64,000 nt of DNA from Kosakonia radicincitans DSM 16656. GTDB taxonomy: Bacteria; Pseudomonadota; Gammaproteobacteria; Enterobacterales; Enterobacteriaceae. The notes under the pieces were generated by a model, which was not told the DNA's origin, ran no database searches, and saw only the letters and a list, made by a program, of their open reading frames with translations. This document shows positions 34,974-42,370 of the stretch, piece by piece. Where the stretch lies: assembly GCF_000280495.2 (NCBI RefSeq), contig NZ_CP018016.1:1-64000 (forward strand), given 5' to 3'. The translations under genes and the position numbers were made by a program. How positions within the stretch are numbered: position 1 is the stretch's first letter; each line of letters begins with the position of its first letter.

Positions 34974-35930
34974 ATTTCTACAATCAACGATGTATCACGT
35001 TTAGCTGGGGTCTCCAAAGCCACAGTCTCACGGGTGTTGAGTGGTTCGCGCGGCGTTAAGGAAGCCAGTCGCCTCGCGGTACTGAAAGCGGTCGAAGAGC
35101 TGAATTATCGGCCCAATGTTATCGCCCAGTCATTGCTCAGCCAGTCGACAGGCTGCATCGGGGTGATTTGCGCCCAGGAGAATATTAACCAGACCACCGG
35201 TTACCTGTATGCGCTGGAAAAACATCTCAGCCAGAATCAGAAACATTTGCTGTTGCGATTCGCCAATACCAAAGCCGGGGTGATGAGCGCGCTGGATGAA
35301 CTGACCTGCGGGCTGTGCGACGATGTATTGATTATCGGCGCGCGTTTCCCTCTGAAAATTGAAGATGAAAATGTGATTCTGGTCGATTGCGAAGAGTCCA
35401 TCGATTCCACGCCCAACAGCATTCAATTTGATCACGCTTTTGCGGCGGAAACCGCCTGCAACTACCTGATTAGCCAGGGCCGCCGACAAATTGCGCTTAT
35501 CCATCCCGATACCGCTGCGGCCGAGCAGGTGTTGCACGGCTACAAGCTGGCGCTGGAAAACAATTTCCTGCCGTTTAACCGCAACCTGGTTTTTATGGAT
35601 GACACCAGTTCATCGGTGGCGTTGCAGGTGCTGCTCAATAATGCCACCACGCTGAATTTTAACGCGCTACTGGTGGCTGACGAGCAGGAAGCGCAGCGCG
35701 TGATCCCGCAACTGCAAGCGTTTAATAAATCGGTGCCGGGCGACATTATGGTCTTCAGCCTTGCTGGCTCTTTGCATTTACCGGGGATCCCGACCATCCC
35801 GGCGATTGAATATTCAATGGATGCGATGGCGGCGCGCATTGTGGCATGGCTGAATGAGAAAACGCAGAGCGTGCTGGGTTCGTACCGCGTGCGCGGCGAT
35901 TTAATTATTCCTGACGTCGGTAAGCGCTAA
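34974..35930 (+). CDS. LacI-family repressor of the beta-glucoside operon, ATT start
   Basis: A 318-residue regulator with a LacI helix-turn-helix (TINDVSRLAGVSKATVSRVL), hinge region and periplasmic-binding-type core. It is similar in type to AscG/CasR. There is no in-frame ATG, GTG or TTG until 35034, which would cut away the DNA-binding helices; the only start giving a complete domain is ATT 34974, preceded by AGGGGAGA. Rare ATT starts are known for infC and pcnB. It lies divergent to the PTS operon with shared operators. Confidence 0.85.
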   Translation: MSTINDVSRLAGVSKATVSRVLSGSRGVKEASRLAVLKAVEELNYRPNVIAQSLLSQSTGCIGVICAQENINQTTGYLYALEKHLSQNQKHLLLRFANTKAGVMSALDELTCGLCDDVLIIGARFPLKIEDENVILVDCEESIDSTPNSIQFDHAFAAETACNYLISQGRRQIALIHPDTAAAEQVLHGYKLALENNFLPFNRNLVFMDDTSSSVALQVLLNNATTLNFNALLVADEQEAQRVIPQLQAFNKSVPGDIMVFSLAGSLHLPGIPTIPAIEYSMDAMAARIVAWLNEKTQSVLGSYRVRGDLIIPDVGKR

Positions 35931-35935
35931 TAAAT

Positions 35936-35963
35936 AAAAAGCCTCCATGCGGAGGCTTTTTTA
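35936..35963. terminator. Bidirectional terminator between lacI-type gene and fabV
   Basis: AAAAGCCTCC and GGAGGCTTTT form a perfect 10-bp stem with loop ATGC, with A/T tails on both sides. It ends both convergent genes. Confidence 0.88.
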
Positions 35964-35978
35964 ATGGCATTTCAGACG

Positions 35979-37172
35979 TTACGCAAGGCTATATTCTTTA
36001 ACCAGCGTGTGAATATCCAGTTCATCCGAATAATCCACACCCGCCATGCCAAAGCCGTTCAGTTCGTGAAACTCCTGCAAATAACCGGCAAAATCGCCAA
36101 TGACCATAAAGTTATCCGCAGTCACCTGTTTTCTGAGTAATTCCACCGCGTTTTGCACATCCGGGCGAAGTTCATAATCATCCATGCGAATCAACCGTTG
36201 AGCATCGGTAGTCACCTTGCCAAGAGGGGGATAAAGATGATCCAGCATCAGCCGGTGCATTTGCTCAATACAGGTTTCATGTAACCGTTTCTGTTTCATG
36301 ACTTTATACAACAGGGTGATATACAGCGGAAACACAGGAATAAACGCGCTGGCCTTGGTGACCAGCGCTTTACAAATAACCGCATAAGCATTGCCGCTGA
36401 TACGTTGCAACTGCGCATTAATTTCATCGGCGGTATTATGTAAATGCGCTTTTGCGGCACCCAAAGAGCCCTCTTTATAAAGCGGCCAGGTTGATTCCGG
36501 GCCAATATACGAATAGGCAACCGTTTTAAACCCTGCGGCTAATACATCAGCTTGTTCCAGCATGGTGATCCAGCGCTGCCAGTCTTCGCCACCCATCACT
36601 TTTACTGTATCGGCAAGCTGCTGTTCGGTAACAGGTTCCAGCGTCTGTTCTACCATGCGCTGACTTTCCAGTTCAAAACCAGGGCCGGAGAAAGCCTGGC
36701 CGCGAACGCCCAGCGTTGAGTGATAACGCGTACCGTCAGGATGAAGGCGTATGCCAGACGCAACGGAATACACCACCAGATCGATTTTCCCGCCAAATTC
36801 TTGCTGGATAAAATCAATCACGTTTTGCCGCGTGGTATCGGAAAAAGCATCGGCAATAAAATCTTTCGCGATCAGCCCTTTCTCACTCGCCCGTCGCTGA
36901 AACAGAACGTTGTTATACCAGCCCGCGCTGCCTGCGCCTTTTTCACCGGGACCCTTTTCAAACGAGACGCCAATGGTGTCGGCGCTGCCGCCAAAAGCCA
37001 GCGCAATACGAGAAGCCAGCCCATAACCGGAGGAGGCGCCAATCACCAGAACCTTTTTAGGCCCATAGATCTCGCCGTGTGATTCGACATAGGCAATCTG
37101 TTTATCAATGGCTTTCAGCAGCCCTTCCGGGTGGCAGTTTTTAGCCACATTACCCTGAATAATCGGTTTCAT
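35979..37172 (-). CDS. fabV: Trans-2-enoyl-CoA/ACP reductase FabV (Ter type)
   Basis: FabV/Ter enzymes reduce crotonyl-CoA or enoyl-ACP irreversibly with NADH. The product is 397 residues, the family length. The Rossmann motif GASSGYG is at 45-51 and the catalytic pair Tyr232-x8-Lys241 lies in YKEGSLGAAK, matching the FabV signature. It is the second gene of a leftward pair, 16 bases after maoC. Together with the divergent thiolase-phaB-ptb-buk genes it completes a route to butyrate, replacing Bcd/Etf. As a FabI substitute it could also lower triclosan sensitivity. Confidence 0.95.
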   Translation of the reverse strand: MKPIIQGNVAKNCHPEGLLKAIDKQIAYVESHGEIYGPKKVLVIGASSGYGLASRIALAFGGSADTIGVSFEKGPGEKGAGSAGWYNNVLFQRRASEKGLIAKDFIADAFSDTTRQNVIDFIQQEFGGKIDLVVYSVASGIRLHPDGTRYHSTLGVRGQAFSGPGFELESQRMVEQTLEPVTEQQLADTVKVMGGEDWQRWITMLEQADVLAAGFKTVAYSYIGPESTWPLYKEGSLGAAKAHLHNTADEINAQLQRISGNAYAVICKALVTKASAFIPVFPLYITLLYKVMKQKRLHETCIEQMHRLMLDHLYPPLGKVTTDAQRLIRMDDYELRPDVQNAVELLRKQVTADNFMVIGDFAGYLQEFHELNGFGMAGVDYSDELDIHTLVKEYSLA

Positions 37173-37188
37173 AATGTGTTATCTCCGG

Positions 37189-37611
37189 TCAGTGTTTTAC
37201 GGCGGGAGATAACACAAGTGCTTCTCCTTTAATGACAACATCGCCATGCTGATTTGTGCAGGTGGTTTTCAGACTGACCCGTTTTTTCTCCGTATCAATA
37301 GCAATAATTTCCACGGTTGCTGTCACCGTATCGCCAATAAAAGTTGGTTTGGTAAATTTAAGATCCTGCGCCAAATAAATAGAGCCTTTACCGGGGAGTT
37401 TATTTGCAATAACTGCAGAAATTAAACCGCTTACCAGAATTCCGTGAACAACACGCTGGCCAAATATGCTTTTTTTACCCGCGGCATCGTCAAGATGCAC
37501 TGGGTTCATGTCACCTGAGGCCTCTGCAAAATTCATCACGTCTTCTTCAGTGAGTTTTTTTGTAAATTGCGCTTTTTGCCCTGTTTGTAAACATTCGGCT
37601 CTTTCTGTCAT
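37189..37611 (-). CDS. MaoC-type (R)-specific enoyl-CoA hydratase (PhaJ-like)
   Basis: A single hot-dog domain of 140 residues with the hydratase-2 motif FAEASGDMNPVHLDD; Asp34 and His39 are the catalytic pair (Asp31/His36 in Aeromonas PhaJ). It interconverts (R)-3-hydroxybutyryl-CoA and crotonyl-CoA. The R stereochemistry fits the PhaB-type reductase encoded divergently. It is the first gene of the leftward operon with fabV. Function in dehydration rather than PHA supply is inferred from the absence of phaC. Confidence 0.9.
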   Translation of the reverse strand: MTERAECLQTGQKAQFTKKLTEEDVMNFAEASGDMNPVHLDDAAGKKSIFGQRVVHGILVSGLISAVIANKLPGKGSIYLAQDLKFTKPTFIGDTVTATVEIIAIDTEKKRVSLKTTCTNQHGDVVIKGEALVLSPAVKH

Positions 37612-37742
37612 TTTTAAAAACCTCCATTTAAATATATCATGTAAATATCCTTTTTTGAGCGGTGATAAGAATTATCAAATTTAAATACTATCGATCTTGA
37701 AACCGCCTTATTTATATAAAATTCATAGTAAGCATTGAATAA

Positions 37743-37812
37743 ATTGTATGGGTCAGCTTTTACTCAAACATTGACATTAATCAAAGTACCCTTTCACCTA
37801 ATTAGGATAAAA
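37743..37812. promoter_or_regulatory. FNR-like box between divergent promoters
   Basis: TTGACATTAATCAA (37771-37784) matches the FNR consensus TTGAT-N4-ATCAA except one base. Rightward, a -10-like GATAAA (37806-37811) puts the start near 37818-37819; leftward, TACAAT (37748 to 37743) puts the start near 37736. Both starts lie about 41.5 bases from the box centre, the class II FNR position, so one dimer could activate both operons without oxygen. The 236-base gap 37612-37847 holds no gene. Confidence 0.7.
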
Positions 37813-37847
37813 ATTCTCGTAGTTTAATTAAGCGAAAGGCTAAAATA

Positions 37848-39035
37848 ATGAAGGATACTGATATTGTTATACTTGGCGCAGCAAGGACAGCTATTGGCTC
37901 GCTTAATGGTTCCCTTGCCAATATATCCTCACCTAAACTGGGATCTATAGTGATTAAATCACTTCTTGAAAAGTCTCATATTCCGGTAAAAGAAGTGGAT
38001 GAGGTTATCATTGGTCAGGTTTTAACGGCGGGGTGTGGGCAAAATCCAGCGCGACAAACATTAATTCATTCCGGTATTTCACAGGATGTTCCCGCGCTGA
38101 CAATTAATAAAGTTTGTGGCTCAGGAATGAAAGCATTACAGCTTGCATATCAGTCATTAAAGTGCGGTGAAGCTGAGCTGATTATTGCGGGCGGGCAGGA
38201 AAATATGAGTCAGTCCCCGCATATTCTTCCTCACTCCCGTAATGGAATGAAAATGGGTAACTGGGAAATGCAGGACAGCATGGTTAATGATGGATTATGG
38301 GATGCATTCCATGATTATCACATGGGGATGACTGCGGAAAATATCGCGGAGAAATATGGTATTACGCGTGAAGAGCAGGATGAATTTGCGCTGGCCTCGC
38401 AACGTAAAGCCGCTGCTGCCCTTGAGGCTTCCCGTTTTGTCAGTGAGATTGTGCCGGTTGTTATTATCAAACCCGGTAAAGAGACCATCGTAGTTGAAAA
38501 AGATGAATTTCCGCGTCCACAAACCACGCGTGAAGGGCTGGCAAAACTACGCCCGGCTTTCAAGAAAGAGGGAACCGTAACCGCCGGCAACGCTTCCGGG
38601 GTAAATGATGGCGCGGCCATGGTTATTTTGGCTACCGCGAAAAAAGCCAGAGAACTGGGTATTACACCGCTTGGCCGAATCGTTGAATTTGCAACCTCAG
38701 GTGTTGCTCCGGAAATAATGGGAACCGGGCCGATTGAAGCTTCCCGAAATGTACTTAAAAAATCAAACTGGCAGGTCAGCAACCTTGATCTTATTGAAGC
38801 CAATGAAGCGTTTGCGGCGCAGGCTATCGCGGTTAACCGTGAAATGGGCTGGGATCTGACGAAAGTGAATGTTAATGGCGGCGCCATTGCTCTCGGTCAC
38901 CCTATTGGCGCGTCTGGTGCCCGTATTTTTGTGTCGTTAATTCATGAAATGCAGCGCCGAAAAAGTAAAAAAGGTCTGGCGACATTATGCATTGGCGGCG
39001 GCATGGGCATTGCTGTCACGGTTGAGATGGATTAA
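37848..39035 (+). CDS. Acetyl-CoA C-acetyltransferase (thiolase)
   Basis: A 395-residue biosynthetic thiolase that condenses two acetyl-CoA to acetoacetyl-CoA. The nucleophile is Cys90 in KVCGSGMKAL; His350 in GGAIALGHPIG and Cys381 in CIGGGMG complete the site, matching PhaA/AtoB. It is the first gene of the rightward operon, 40 bases before phaB. The DNA is visibly more AT-rich than flanking core genes, suggesting transfer. Confidence 0.95.
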   Translation: MKDTDIVILGAARTAIGSLNGSLANISSPKLGSIVIKSLLEKSHIPVKEVDEVIIGQVLTAGCGQNPARQTLIHSGISQDVPALTINKVCGSGMKALQLAYQSLKCGEAELIIAGGQENMSQSPHILPHSRNGMKMGNWEMQDSMVNDGLWDAFHDYHMGMTAENIAEKYGITREEQDEFALASQRKAAAALEASRFVSEIVPVVIIKPGKETIVVEKDEFPRPQTTREGLAKLRPAFKKEGTVTAGNASGVNDGAAMVILATAKKARELGITPLGRIVEFATSGVAPEIMGTGPIEASRNVLKKSNWQVSNLDLIEANEAFAAQAIAVNREMGWDLTKVNVNGGAIALGHPIGASGARIFVSLIHEMQRRKSKKGLATLCIGGGMGIAVTVEMD

Positions 39036-39075
39036 CGCGGCGATCCGGAATTTTATTTGATACAGGAAACAGGTC

Positions 39076-39816
39076 ATGGAAGAAAAAATTGCACTGGTAA
39101 CGGGCGGAATTCGGGGTATTGGTGAAAAAATTAGCCTGCGATTTCTTAAAGAAGGTTACCAGGTCGTTGCGTTTGATAATGATGCCAGTCGGCTGAACGA
39201 CTGGGCGGAAACGCAAAAAGCAGCAGGCTTTGAAAAAATCGATACGGTTGTTTGTGATGTCAGTAATTATGAACAATGTCAGTCTGCCGTTGCCTCGGTA
39301 TTGAATAAATACGGCCACATTGATGTGCTGGTCAATAATGCCGGTATTACCCGTGATGCAACATTCAAGAAAATGGATAAATCCCAGTGGGATGCAGTAA
39401 TTCAGGTTAACCTGAATAGCATGTTTAATATGACCAAACCGGTGATTGACAATATGTTAGCCAATCAACGTGGTCGCATAATTAACATGTCATCCATTAA
39501 CGGTCAGAAAGGGCAGTTTGGTCAGGCTAATTATTCTGCGGCTAAAGCAGGCGTTCACGGTTTTACCAAAGCGCTGGCGCAGGAAGTTGCGCGTAAAAAC
39601 ATTACCGTAAACACCATTTCTCCAGGATATATCAATACGGAAATGATGCAGGCGATTCCGGATGATGTGCTGGAAAGTATTAAAGCGCAAATTCCGGTTG
39701 GCCGTCTTGGTGAAGCCGATGAAATCGCAGAGCTTGTGTTATATCTCTGTGGTGATAAATCGGGTTATATCACCGGCTCTAATATTGCCATTAATGGCGG
39801 CCAGCATATGTGTTAA
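39076..39816 (+). CDS. phaB: Acetoacetyl-CoA reductase, PhaB type
   Basis: A 246-residue short-chain dehydrogenase giving (R)-3-hydroxybutyryl-CoA. It has TGGIRGIG (9-16), NNAG (87-90), Ser140 and Tyr153-x3-Lys157, and the PhaB hallmark SINGQKGQFGQANYSAAKAG. Asp34 at the end of strand 2 suggests NADH rather than NADPH use, which would suit fermentation; this is inference. No PHA synthase is nearby. Confidence 0.92.
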   Translation: MEEKIALVTGGIRGIGEKISLRFLKEGYQVVAFDNDASRLNDWAETQKAAGFEKIDTVVCDVSNYEQCQSAVASVLNKYGHIDVLVNNAGITRDATFKKMDKSQWDAVIQVNLNSMFNMTKPVIDNMLANQRGRIINMSSINGQKGQFGQANYSAAKAGVHGFTKALAQEVARKNITVNTISPGYINTEMMQAIPDDVLESIKAQIPVGRLGEADEIAELVLYLCGDKSGYITGSNIAINGGQHMC

Positions 39817-39838
39817 CAGGTAAGTGATTGCCGAATTT

Positions 39839-39873
39839 CAGCAGGTATGATGGCTCATACCTGCTGAGCTTTT
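39839..39873 (+). terminator. Hairpin between phaB and ptb
   Basis: CAGCAGGTATGA and TCATACCTGCTG form a perfect 12-bp stem with loop TGGC, followed by AGCTTTT. It may partly terminate or stabilise the upstream message, giving more thiolase/PhaB than Ptb/Buk. Confidence 0.7.
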
Positions 39874-39897
39874 AGTGAGTATTCAGGATATTCCATT

Positions 39898-40788
39898 ATG
39901 CTAAAGCAGCTAGATTCATTTTTAGAGTTAGCCAAAAGAAAAAGTCAGAAAACCATTGCAGTAGCTGCTGCGGAGGATGCTTTTGCACTCGATGCAATCA
40001 GGATGATCGTCGTGCAGGGGTTAGGTCGCGCTATTTTAGTCGGTTGCCGCGAAAAAATCGTCACCATTGCCGGGCGTCTGGATTTTGATATCAGAGAAGT
40101 TGAAGTCATTGATCTTCCCGATAAAACGCAAGCGTGTAATAAAGCTGTGGAGTTGGTGAAGTCAGGAAAGGCCGATATTTTAATGAAAGGCCTGGTCGAC
40201 AGCCCTGTTTATCTGCGGGCAATCCTCAATAAGACCTTCGGGATTGCTGAATCCAGCCTGGTCACGCAGATGGCTTTTATTCAGAGTCCTTTTTATAGAA
40301 AATTATTCGCTATTACTGATGCCGGAATTAATATTTCCCCGACAAAACAGGATAAAAAAATCATGGTTACGCAGTCGGTGGATTTACTCCACCGGCTGGA
40401 CATCAGTAATCCGAAGGTTGCCCTCATAGCTGCCGTGGAACATGCCACGCCTGCAATCCAGGCAACGATAGATGCAGCGGAATTAAGCGAAGAACATTTT
40501 GATAATTGCATCGTTGAAGGGCCGCTCTCTGTTGATCTGGCGTTTAGCCACGATTCCTGCCGGCATAAAGGGCTGGATACGCAGGTCGGCGGTGATGTTG
40601 ATTTAATCGTGCTGCCCGATGTTAACAGCGCGAATGTCTTCTATAAGACCGTCATGCAGCTCGGCAGCGGTTCAAGCGCCAGCGTCCTGACCGGCACTTC
40701 GGCTCCCGTCGTATTTACTTCGCGTTCGGACACGGCCACCACGAAGTATTTTTCTATTGCCTGCGCGATAGCTCAGTGTAAGGACTAG
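39898..40788 (+). CDS. ptb: Phosphate butyryltransferase
   Basis: Ptb turns butyryl-CoA and phosphate into butyryl-phosphate. The 296-residue product belongs to the PTA/PTB family, with LMKGLVDSPVYLRAIL, AITDAGINISP and LPDVNSANVFYK. Its pairing with butyrate kinase 2 bases downstream distinguishes it from phosphotransacetylase. Other acyl-CoA, including 3-hydroxybutyryl-CoA, could be accepted. Confidence 0.93.
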   Translation: MLKQLDSFLELAKRKSQKTIAVAAAEDAFALDAIRMIVVQGLGRAILVGCREKIVTIAGRLDFDIREVEVIDLPDKTQACNKAVELVKSGKADILMKGLVDSPVYLRAILNKTFGIAESSLVTQMAFIQSPFYRKLFAITDAGINISPTKQDKKIMVTQSVDLLHRLDISNPKVALIAAVEHATPAIQATIDAAELSEEHFDNCIVEGPLSVDLAFSHDSCRHKGLDTQVGGDVDLIVLPDVNSANVFYKTVMQLGSGSSASVLTGTSAPVVFTSRSDTATTKYFSIACAIAQCKD

Positions 40789-40790
40789 TT

Positions 40791-41861
40791 ATGTATATTC
40801 TGGTCATTAATCCTGGATCAACCTCAACCAAGCTGGCGATTTATAACAACAGAACGCAACTGGTTTGCCGGACATATAACCATAATGAAGCTGAGTTAGG
40901 TCCGTATTCAAATATCCTGGAACAAAAACAATTCCGCAAAGAAATTATTCTTGGCATGTTGCATGAACACGGTTTCAGAACCAAAGATATGGATCTGTTT
41001 GTCGGGCGCGGCGGGCTGGTCCGCTATCTTGAAAGTGGTGTTTACCGTATTAACGACGCCTATTTACATGATGCAAGCGTGGGTCTTAACGGTGAGCATG
41101 CTTCAAATCTCGGCGCTATTCTGGCCTGGGAACTGGCAAAAGACGCTGAGAAAGAGAATATGGCTTATACCGTTGATCCGGTGGTGGTGGATGAGTGTGA
41201 TCCTGTTGCTAAAATCTCCGGCATGCCGGAAATATCGCGGGTCGGCGCTTTTCATGCCCTTAATCAGAAAGCGGTTGCTCATCGTTACGCCATTCAGGTG
41301 GAAAAACCTTATGCCAGCCTGAATTTAATTGTTGCGCACCTCGGCGGCGGTATCAGCGTCGGCGCTCATCGCGATGGCCGGATTGTTGATGTGAATTCCG
41401 CATTAGGCGGCGATGGACCGTTCTCGCCGGAACGCGTGGGTCGTCTCCCTTGCCTGGCTTTATTAAACCTCTGTTTTTCTGGTGAATATACCTATGATTC
41501 GCTGAAGAAAAAGCTCATTGGTGAAGGCGGTGTGTTTGGCTATTTAGGCACGAAAGACATTCGCGATGTTGAGCAGCTAATCAGCGATGGAAATCAAAAA
41601 GCGTTAGAGGTGCTTGAGGCGATGGCTTACCAGGTCGCAAAAGAGATCGCCTCATGCGCGGCTGTTCTCGCGGGCCGCGTCGATGCCATTATTCTCACCG
41701 GAGGCGTTGCCCGGAGCGGCAGAGTGATTAATGACATTCGTAAACGCATCGGCTTTATTACCCCTGAAATTATCGTTTACCCCGGCGAGGATGAATTATT
41801 TGCTCTGGTTGACGGAGCACTGTCGGCAATAGAAGGCCGAAGAGAATTACTGGAATATTAA
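40791..41861 (+). CDS. buk: Butyrate kinase
   Basis: Buk makes ATP and butyrate from butyryl-phosphate. The 356-residue ASKHA-fold protein has INPGSTSTKLAIY at the N-terminus, HLGGGISVGAHRDGRI, and GDGPFSPERVGRLP, all typical of butyrate kinase. It follows ptb by 2 bases. With the upstream genes it closes a pathway from acetyl-CoA to butyrate that consumes two reductant pairs and yields one ATP. Confidence 0.95.
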   Translation: MYILVINPGSTSTKLAIYNNRTQLVCRTYNHNEAELGPYSNILEQKQFRKEIILGMLHEHGFRTKDMDLFVGRGGLVRYLESGVYRINDAYLHDASVGLNGEHASNLGAILAWELAKDAEKENMAYTVDPVVVDECDPVAKISGMPEISRVGAFHALNQKAVAHRYAIQVEKPYASLNLIVAHLGGGISVGAHRDGRIVDVNSALGGDGPFSPERVGRLPCLALLNLCFSGEYTYDSLKKKLIGEGGVFGYLGTKDIRDVEQLISDGNQKALEVLEAMAYQVAKEIASCAAVLAGRVDAIILTGGVARSGRVINDIRKRIGFITPEIIVYPGEDELFALVDGALSAIEGRRELLEY

Positions 41862-41873
41862 TAGGAGAATATT

Positions 41874-42074
41874 ATGTTAGATAAAAGTAATACAACACTG
41901 ACTCCTGACAGAACAACACTGGTCGAGTCAAATGGCTGTGTTTATCTTTCTTTCGCATTCAATGATAAGAAAGACAATATGTTAATTAAACTTGGTTTGT
42001 TTGAAGTTAATTATCTTGCCGATGAGTTTGATGAATTAAATCAAAGGATCCTTATTAGCTCTGAATATAATTAG
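41874..42074 (+). CDS. Small acidic protein of unknown function
   Basis: A 66-residue AT-rich reading frame 12 bases after buk, with AGGAGAATATT before its ATG. The protein is acidic with alternating hydrophobic stretches (CVYLSFAFND, MLIKLGLFEVNYLADEF) and no membrane helix. I do not recognise it. Its coupling to buk suggests a role with the pathway, for example an accessory subunit or regulator, but nothing in the sequence shows it. Confidence 0.65.
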   Translation: MLDKSNTTLTPDRTTLVESNGCVYLSFAFNDKKDNMLIKLGLFEVNYLADEFDELNQRILISSEYN

Positions 42075-42148
42075 CCAACACGCTAATCACAAAATTCTGT
42101 GCTACGGACGTTATTCCTCAGTAACGTAAATAAGCAGGCATGCAGCCA

Positions 42149-42189
42149 CAGGCAAACAGGAAGCGCTTCTTTCTGTTTGCCTGTTTTTT
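42149..42189 (+). terminator. Terminator of the butyrate operon
   Basis: CAGGCAAACAG (42149-42159) pairs with CTGTTTGCCTG (42173-42183), followed by six T. The remainder of the 393-base gap 42075-42467 shows only the repeats listed next. Confidence 0.92.
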
Positions 42190-42316
42190 CAGGCGCGCAC
42201 TTTCATGGTGATAAAACGACCAGAGTTGTGGAAATCACGCCTTTACTACCGGGGATGGTTTTGACCGGGCTTTGCGGGTTCCTCAATTCGTCGGCACAAT
42301 GCGGTTTGTAAGCTGC

Positions 42317-42370
42317 TTAGCAAACTTATGACATTGATTTGCCATAAATTTGCTAATGACAATTTGCTAT
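42317..42370. promoter_or_regulatory. Repeated ATTTGC motifs upstream of the ABC operon
   Basis: ATTTGC occurs at 42337, 42348 and 42362, and TTAGCAAA (42317-42324) is the exact inverse of TTTGCTAA (42349-42356). The cluster lies about 100 bases before the binding-protein start and may be an operator; no regulator can be named. Confidence 0.4.

Follow-up and report, generated by a model that had tools for sequence, protein, structure and literature searches.

Butyrate is generally regarded as a product of strict anaerobes, and a six-gene locus in Kosakonia radicincitans DSM 16656, a readily grown facultative anaerobe, raises the question of whether an enterobacterium carries a route of its own from acetyl-coenzyme A (acetyl-CoA) to this acid. 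The locus lies at positions 35979-42074 of the window, the whole stretch of 64,000 nucleotides analyzed here (positions 1 to 64,000 of contig NZ_CP018016.1), in a host genome of 6,122,453 bases and 3 contigs. A first-pass annotation of the window had read the locus as encoding every step of an (R)-route that turns acetyl-CoA into butyrate, with no Bcd/Etf in the cluster, and the protein families, catalytic motifs, purifying selection, empty site in a relative, lack of a PhaC match, separate FabI and FNR-like box described below all fit that reading. We conclude that the locus is probably an acquired fermentation cassette that makes butyrate without oxygen, by an NADH-linked, ATP-forming (R)-route that does without Bcd/Etf.

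Gene content and arrangement of the cassette

Open reading frame (ORF) analysis of the window placed six intact, uninterrupted genes within 35979-42074, in two divergent units separated by an intergenic region of 236 bp, just where the first-pass annotation had put them. The cassette, its flanking signals and the limits of the inserted segment are as follows.

35979..37172, minus strand: fabV/ter, FabV/TER-family NAD(P)H enoyl reductase (NCBIfam NF010177)
37189..37611, minus strand: maoC/phaJ, predicted MaoC/PhaJ-type (R)-specific enoyl-CoA hydratase (PF01575; solved relatives)
37771..37784, plus strand: FNR-like box TTGACATTAATCAA, matching the consensus at 9/10 positions and placed 63 bp ahead of the thiolase start codon (ATG)
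37848..39035, plus strand: thl, predicted thiolase (acetyl-CoA C-acetyltransferase), first gene of the plus unit (TIGR01930)
39076..39816, plus strand: phaB, predicted PhaB-type acetoacetyl-CoA reductase of the short-chain dehydrogenase/reductase (SDR) type (TIGR01829)
39837..39868, plus strand: intercistronic hairpin in the phaB/ptb gap (hairpin scan)
39898..40788, plus strand: ptb, phosphate butyryltransferase-like (homology; PRK05805 is the best NCBIfam model)
40791..41861, plus strand: buk, predicted butyrate kinase, beginning 2 bases past ptb (TIGR02707)
41874..42074, plus strand: ORF of 66 amino acids, last of the plus unit (counterparts in other loci)
42148..42184, plus strand: strong terminator-like hairpin closing the plus unit (hairpin scan)
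35936..35961, minus strand: terminator-like hairpin between lacI and the end of fabV (hairpin scan)
35964..42337: inserted segment (the window aligns with the empty site of a congeneric genome, G008, up to 35963 and again from 42338)

Gaps between genes of the plus unit measure 2 to 81 bases, and purine-rich stretches that could serve in ribosome binding are visible by eye upstream of the genes. The insert had been described as richer in AT than its flanks, and its GC content is indeed 46.0%, against 55.7% for the remainder of the window.

Enzyme assignments

Four of the six proteins (thiolase, PhaB, FabV and Buk) each exceed one curated cut-off. The thiolase scores 488 bits with TIGR01930 (cut-off 241) and 598 bits with its best model, PRK05656, under the cut-off of 688; PhaB scores 354 bits with TIGR01829 (cut-off 302) and 201 bits with the equivalog NF042966, under the cut-off of 436. 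Buk reaches 468 bits with TIGR02707, over the curated equivalog cut-off of 289, and is homologous along its whole length to Buk2 (1x9j). MaoC matches PF01575; among solved structures it is closest to two (R)-specific enoyl-CoA hydratases, 5cpg and 1iq6. The nearest solved relative of Ptb is likewise a Ptb (7vg9), and the protein is a clear phosphate butyryltransferase homologue. Catalytic motifs of the thiolase, PhaB, MaoC and FabV families are kept: the Cys/His/Cys motifs of the thiolase (NKVCGSG, GHPIGASG and CIGGGMG) in 6/6 loci checked, and Tyr-x3-Lys of PhaB, SGD-NP-H-D of MaoC and Tyr232-X8-Lys241 of FabV in all nine six-gene loci known to us (see below). The family assignments of the first-pass annotation thus held for the thiolase, PhaB, MaoC and Buk; its Ptb falls under curated cut-offs, and its FabV appears to be neither a typical housekeeping FabV nor clearly a Ter. 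The thiolase and the terminal Ptb-Buk of the classical acetyl-CoA butyrate pathway are therefore present (Ptb by homology), and Hbd, Crt and Bcd-EtfAB are not among the six cassette genes, the rest of the genome not having been searched for Hbd, Crt or Bcd.

In SDR enzymes, an Asp that closes the second beta strand favors NADH. The cassette PhaB has an Asp at this position in 9/9 six-gene loci (AFDND, AVDTD, AIDTD or AVDID), and in the alignment neither the two solved PhaBs (YSPNN, GCGPN) nor the PhaB of a Scandinavium plasmid (VATNP) has one. This residue suggests that the cassette PhaB uses NADH.

The FabV-family protein scores 527 bits with NF010177 (cut-off 403) and is the sole match to its family in the host genome. 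A separate FabI, with 95% identity to the E. coli protein, is also encoded, and fatty acid synthesis should therefore not depend on the FabV-family protein. Its counterparts in genus mates are 80-81% identical, and a protein named Kosakonia sacchari (P0126) is at 81%. A tree of 41 proteins gathers 21 relatives at 59% identity or more in one clade (100/99), gene context having been read for three, next to Aeromonas, Vibrio and Photobacterium relatives that their sources name FabV or trans-2-enoyl-CoA reductase. The window protein falls on the side of Clostridium acetobutylicum Ter, split 99/94 from three solved FabVs, in a tree with a midpoint root and long Ter branches in which the Ter of T. 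denticola falls on the FabV side. A by-eye impression that residues diagnostic of Ter versus FabV were clear was dropped, the residues proving mixed on counting. Sequence does not decide between a CoA and an acyl carrier protein (ACP) substrate for this protein.

Distribution, acquisition and selection

A genome survey with Buk, followed by reading of the loci, found the six families together in nine loci belonging to two genera of one family. Buk is present at 76-100% identity in 7 of 15 Kosakonia genomes, own included, and the other eight yield only acetate-kinase-type matches at about 30%. Each of the six other Kosakonia loci contains the full set of six genes, identically arranged as two divergent units and with stop-free frames, and the small ORF; in the second genus, Buk occurs in 2 of 6 genomes (G128 and G401), both with the six-gene cassette and an ORF of 65 amino acids. 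Since the arrangement is kept in these 8 further genomes, with each gene stop-free over its length or nearly so, the cassette is not a chance assembly.

Beyond these loci, most sampled genomes lack a Buk of the cassette type, and the distribution is therefore patchy. At E < 1e-70, Buk is found in 6 of 392 genomes of the family sample: the host itself, G009, G128 (65%), G055 (61%), G079 (58%) and G193 (39%), the last in another gene setting (L143). In the genus of G079 it occurs in 1 of 6 genomes, and in that of G710 in 9 of 99 (E 1e-50), with 59% identity in G710 and 42-51% in the others. In the order sample, 5 of 394 genomes reach E 1e-50 or lower (two at 43-44%), and in the class sample 3 of 369 reach 1e-95 or lower, namely the host and two at 48-49%. 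A scan of GTDB contigs with Buk, covering the best 80 of 581 matches, all at 55% identity or less, is not exhaustive, since it did not show Scandinavium and others at 58-65%. Neither PLSDB nor the complete E. coli genomes yielded a close relative of the cassette, and an origin from a plasmid or from E. coli was rejected. A distant DNA search returned 176 plasmid records; among the 20 listed, a Scandinavium plasmid alone matches thl, phaB, ptb and buk, and the other listed plasmids match over parts of thl, phaB or fabV. A Buk protein search of plasmids returned 19 records, with Scandinavium alone at 60% or more.

Horizontal acquisition, also claimed in the first-pass annotation, is supported by an empty site in G008 and by differing flanks in other genomes. 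The empty site consists of lacI and its terminator, which includes the lacI-side counterpart of the hairpin at 35936-35961, followed by 185 unaligned bases and then the region before a substrate-binding-protein gene; G008 carries its own cassette at another site. That second site is common to G009, G011, G008 and G007 (L136-L139), which are alike over 15-17 kb and, as read by eye, have a umuC-like gene on one side and smrA, ogt and fnr-like genes on the other. In G128 and G401 (L140/L162) the cassette occupies a third site, beside dkgA. On the Scandinavium goeteborgense plasmid, insertion-sequence genes lie some kilobases off on both sides of the related locus. The neighboring substrate-binding-protein gene is present in 10 of the 14 Kosakonia genomes searched: the cassette precedes it in 3, the G008 site is empty, and in the other 6 the roughly 1.4 kb read upstream is unlike the window. 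The region 5' of this oligopeptide-type gene (window 42338; L181, L183-L187) thus varies among Kosakonia genomes and is perhaps an insertion hot spot.

All six genes show ratios of nonsynonymous to synonymous substitution rates (dN/dS) of 0.03-0.12, pointing to purifying selection; these values are based on G004 and G010, dS against K. sacchari and G128 being high or not computable in most comparisons.

An FNR-like box upstream of thl

A similar FNR-like box precedes thl by 60-63 bp in 7/7 Kosakonia loci. In the K. sacchari lineage it matches 9 or 10 of 10 consensus positions and lies 60 bp before thl. The intergenic regions of the two Kosakonia lineages (236 versus about 525 bp) otherwise align poorly.

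Predicted pathway and alternative explanations

The gene set would support the following pathway. The thiolase would condense two acetyl-CoA into acetoacetyl-CoA, which PhaB would reduce with NADH to (R)-3-hydroxybutyryl-CoA; MaoC/PhaJ would dehydrate this to crotonyl-CoA, and FabV/TER would reduce crotonyl-CoA with NADH to butyryl-CoA, from which Ptb would form butyryl-phosphate and Buk would release butyrate and ATP. Two NADH would be re-oxidized and one ATP gained per butyrate and, with pyruvate formate-lyase, glucose would yield butyrate, 2 formate and 3 ATP in redox balance, a stoichiometry that is established given an NADH-using reductase. Transcription of the plus unit would be switched on by FNR.

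Several observations weigh against this scheme. Ptb scores 271 bits with TIGR02706, against a cut-off of 410.5, and 288 with PRK05805, against 399, and is classed here as Ptb-like only, its substrate not being settled by sequence. Of 12 positions at which three solved FabVs differ from two Ters, the window protein agrees with the Ters at 4 and with the FabVs at 3. The Scandinavium Ptb-Buk lies in a locus without maoC and fabV, so that specificity of a Ptb-Buk pair for butyryl-CoA is not implied. As to the regulatory element, the window holds 4 FNR boxes against 2.1 expected, which is not an enrichment; locus L136 holds 4 against 0.9 expected, with as many in 3 of 200 shuffles; the best match in single intergenic regions is reached in 0 to 32 of 300 shuffles; and no box with at least 9 matches occurs in five non-Kosakonia loci (G128, G401, Scandinavium, G079 and G710). 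Given positional agreement in two lineages, counts that are not significant and none of five loci outside the genus, FNR control is a prediction for Kosakonia only.

The Scandinavium locus also lends weight to a different product, named as an alternative in the first-pass annotation: Ptb-Buk could act directly on (R)-3-hydroxybutyryl-CoA, making (R)-3-hydroxybutyrate the main product and leaving MaoC-FabV to another end or a minor branch. The plasmid carries thl-phaB-ptb-buk, the 18 kb read matching neither maoC nor fabV, and, according to the accessible part of PMC7147478, clostridial Ptb-Buk release 3-hydroxybutyrate in E. coli, only the R form being found. All nine loci of Kosakonia and the G128 genus, however, keep maoC and fabV open over their length, and both genes share the low dN/dS range given above against the two relatives. 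In a tree that includes Buk from 5 six-gene loci, these five form a subclade apart from the Scandinavium Buk, and a pathway ending at 3-hydroxybutyrate would use just one of the two NADH. We consider (R)-3-hydroxybutyrate unlikely as the main product.

Since Ptb, Buk, PhaB, MaoC and thiolase are reversible enzymes, the cassette could also be imagined to run in the assimilating direction, with Buk and Ptb activating butyrate or a similar acid for degradation to acetyl-CoA. Enoyl reductases of the FabV/TER family, however, run in the reducing direction, and the cassette genes include no acyl-CoA dehydrogenase; the neighboring regulator is of the LacI type and stands beside sugar genes, and the FNR-like element precedes thl. 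Assimilation is accordingly improbable.

Less credible still is a role for fabV as a backup or inhibitor-tolerant enoyl-ACP reductase whose neighbors form an unrelated C4 pathway. NCBIfam does name the protein FabV, over the equivalog cut-off, but FabI is present, fabV is joined to maoC in 9/9 loci, and the tree parts the cassette protein from the three solved FabVs. Together with FabI, the failure to detect a polyhydroxyalkanoate (PHA) synthase disfavors a role either in housekeeping or in polyhydroxybutyrate metabolism: PhaC_N (PF07167) has no match in the host genome and a single one, in Caulobacter, among 14 control genomes. The last explanation, a PHA pathway remnant left after loss of its synthase, as the likeness of thl and phaB to phaA and phaB might suggest, was rejected for want of that PhaC_N match and has next to nothing in its favor, there being no other PHA gene among the cassette ORFs and ptb-buk forming an acid-producing pair under selection.

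Possible module exchange around Ptb-Buk

Relatives of the butyrate cassette occur in other gene settings. A Buk tree of 36 rows with a midpoint root, in which five butyrate-type loci were entered and three ptb-buk pairs of other settings served as outgroups, contains one clade (100/100) whose Ptb-Buk members fall into three settings. The first, with PhaB, MaoC and FabV/TER, is that of the nine loci, and its five rows form one subclade (99/99). The second is the thl-phaB-ptb-buk set of S. goeteborgense plasmid pSg66741_1 (L141/L144), preceded by a winged-helix gene distantly like IprA; it would be the natural equivalent of the gene set engineered for (R)-3-hydroxybutyrate. The third is a co-directional thl-ptb-buk-adc-acs array in the enterobacterium G079 (L142, 3891-9987) and in G710 (L159, 6729-12886), presumably a vibrio-like genome. 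The acetoacetate decarboxylase of G079 scores 271 bits with PF06314 and 365 with NF002614 (cut-off 150), and its acetate-CoA ligase 947 with NF001208 (cut-off 657); G710 shares 65, 51 and 59% identity with the window in thl, ptb and buk, respectively, and 69 and 53% with G079 in adc and acs. The two acetone-type rows of the tree stand in a subclade (100/98) with Aeromonas salmonicida, Dongshaea marina, Klebsiella aerogenes and Scandinavium sp. V105_16, gene context having been read for G079 and G710 only.

In the third setting, Ptb-Buk would act on acetoacetyl-CoA with conservation of ATP, a route toward acetone familiar from engineering, and the gene content suggests that G079 and G710 form acetone with ATP gain. 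One genome from JGI may hold a Buk of each type (P0004, P0019) together with a FabV relative (P0142). It is conceivable, though we put it forward tentatively, that enterobacteria and vibrio-like bacteria share a mobile thiolase-Ptb-Buk core with exchangeable modules: butyrate would come from PhaB, MaoC and FabV/TER, (R)-3-hydroxybutyrate from PhaB alone, and acetone from acetoacetate decarboxylase with acetate-CoA ligase. These settings are already apart in the Buk tree.

More distant ptb-buk pairs in other genomes of the G710 genus (Buk at about 43-51%; L160, L161, L176 and L177 read) lie in other gene settings. In L160, L161 and L177 the pair is of another type, with Buk identity of about 43%; an aldehyde-dehydrogenase-like neighbor is seen by eye in L160 and L161, that side being cut off in L177. 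In L176 (G813), ptb-buk adjoins genes that by eye resemble indolepyruvate-ferredoxin oxidoreductase, which suggests amino acid fermentation.

Accessory elements and neighboring genes

The ORF of 66 amino acids after buk, unnamed in the first-pass annotation although within its end coordinate, looks real. An ORF of 65-67 amino acids follows buk in 9/9 six-gene loci, those of G128 and G401 being only 19-21% identical; 18 homologues reach E 0.01 or lower, and the 5 that carry a name are all from Kosakonia. With a dN/dS of about 0.2 against the two close relatives (G004 and G010), it is fast-evolving. Its predicted structure, of low confidence (mean predicted local distance difference test score 69.6; predicted template modeling score 0.42), has three strands and a C-terminal helix.

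Terminator-like hairpins lie 3' of both units, although as a class they are not enriched in the window (7 versus 8.4 in shuffles), and that at 35936-35961 probably serves the ends of both lacI and fabV. Hairpins of unrelated sequence are seen by eye at the same place in the phaB/ptb gap of L136 and L140, suggesting a conserved uneven expression of the operon halves. The LacI-type regulator (about 34977-35930) adjoins phosphotransferase system and beta-glucosidase genes; by eye, its helix-turn-helix region extends in frame 5' of the first listed start without an ATG, GTG or TTG, so that the gene start appears unusual or misread. Elsewhere in the host, the first 20 kb of the large plasmid (contig 2, 290 kb) show 100% identity with plasmids of Citrobacter freundii and Klebsiella aerogenes.

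Comparison with known systems

The locus also occurs in other genomes, and its product has once been predicted for the genus: a 2022 survey predicted butyrate synthesis in 1 of 636 Proteobacteria genomes, that of Kosakonia sacchari, matching the cassette in genus and in predicted product (PMC9403272, accessible in part). The acetyl-CoA route of that survey is Thl-Hbd-Crt with Bcd-EtfAB, and the gene composition in Kosakonia is not given in the accessible parts. The open literature searched (titles and starts of abstracts, with subscription journals mostly absent) holds no report of the cassette operon or of measured Kosakonia butyrate, and no thl-ptb-buk-adc-acs operon outside clostridia. The first-pass statement that no such operon had been described in Enterobacteriaceae is thus borne out for the composition within this literature, but the product had been anticipated for K. 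sacchari; neither the (R)-route composition nor the FNR-like box, the cassette's mobility or an exchange of modules at Ptb-Buk turned up there. According to the accessible part of PMC6626047, E. coli has no ptb-buk.

Predictions of function from taxonomy would have to be revised in view of a native butyrate cassette that may be under oxygen control, and a facultative anaerobe carrying it would offer a direct test of the (R)-route without Bcd/Etf. Module exchange would show nature exploiting the loose specificity of Ptb-Buk, as engineers do.

Compared with the classical clostridial pathway (Thl, Hbd, Crt, Bcd-EtfAB and Ptb-Buk), the cassette is alike in its start, in its intermediates except for their stereochemistry and in its ATP-forming Ptb-Buk end. 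It differs in having PhaB and MaoC, for the R isomer, in place of Hbd and Crt, for the S isomer, and one FabV/TER protein in place of Bcd-EtfAB, which would mean no electron bifurcation. A MaoC-phosphotransacylase fusion, PRK08190, is the best NCBIfam model for MaoC (137 bits) and the fourth-best for Ptb (223 bits), both under its cut-off of 282, whereas the cassette has two separate genes in different units. In enzyme types the cassette resembles pathways assembled artificially in E. coli for reverse beta-oxidation and (R)-3-hydroxybutyrate (PhaA/BktB, PhaB, PhaJ and Ter; Ptb-Buk), among which the accessible parts of the sources describe PhaB-PhaJ-Ter sets (PMC9118988) and thiolase-PhaB-Ptb-Buk engineered for (R)-3-hydroxybutyrate (PMC7147478). 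In contrast to these, the cassette described here is natural, selected and mobile and, in Kosakonia, is preceded by an FNR-like box.

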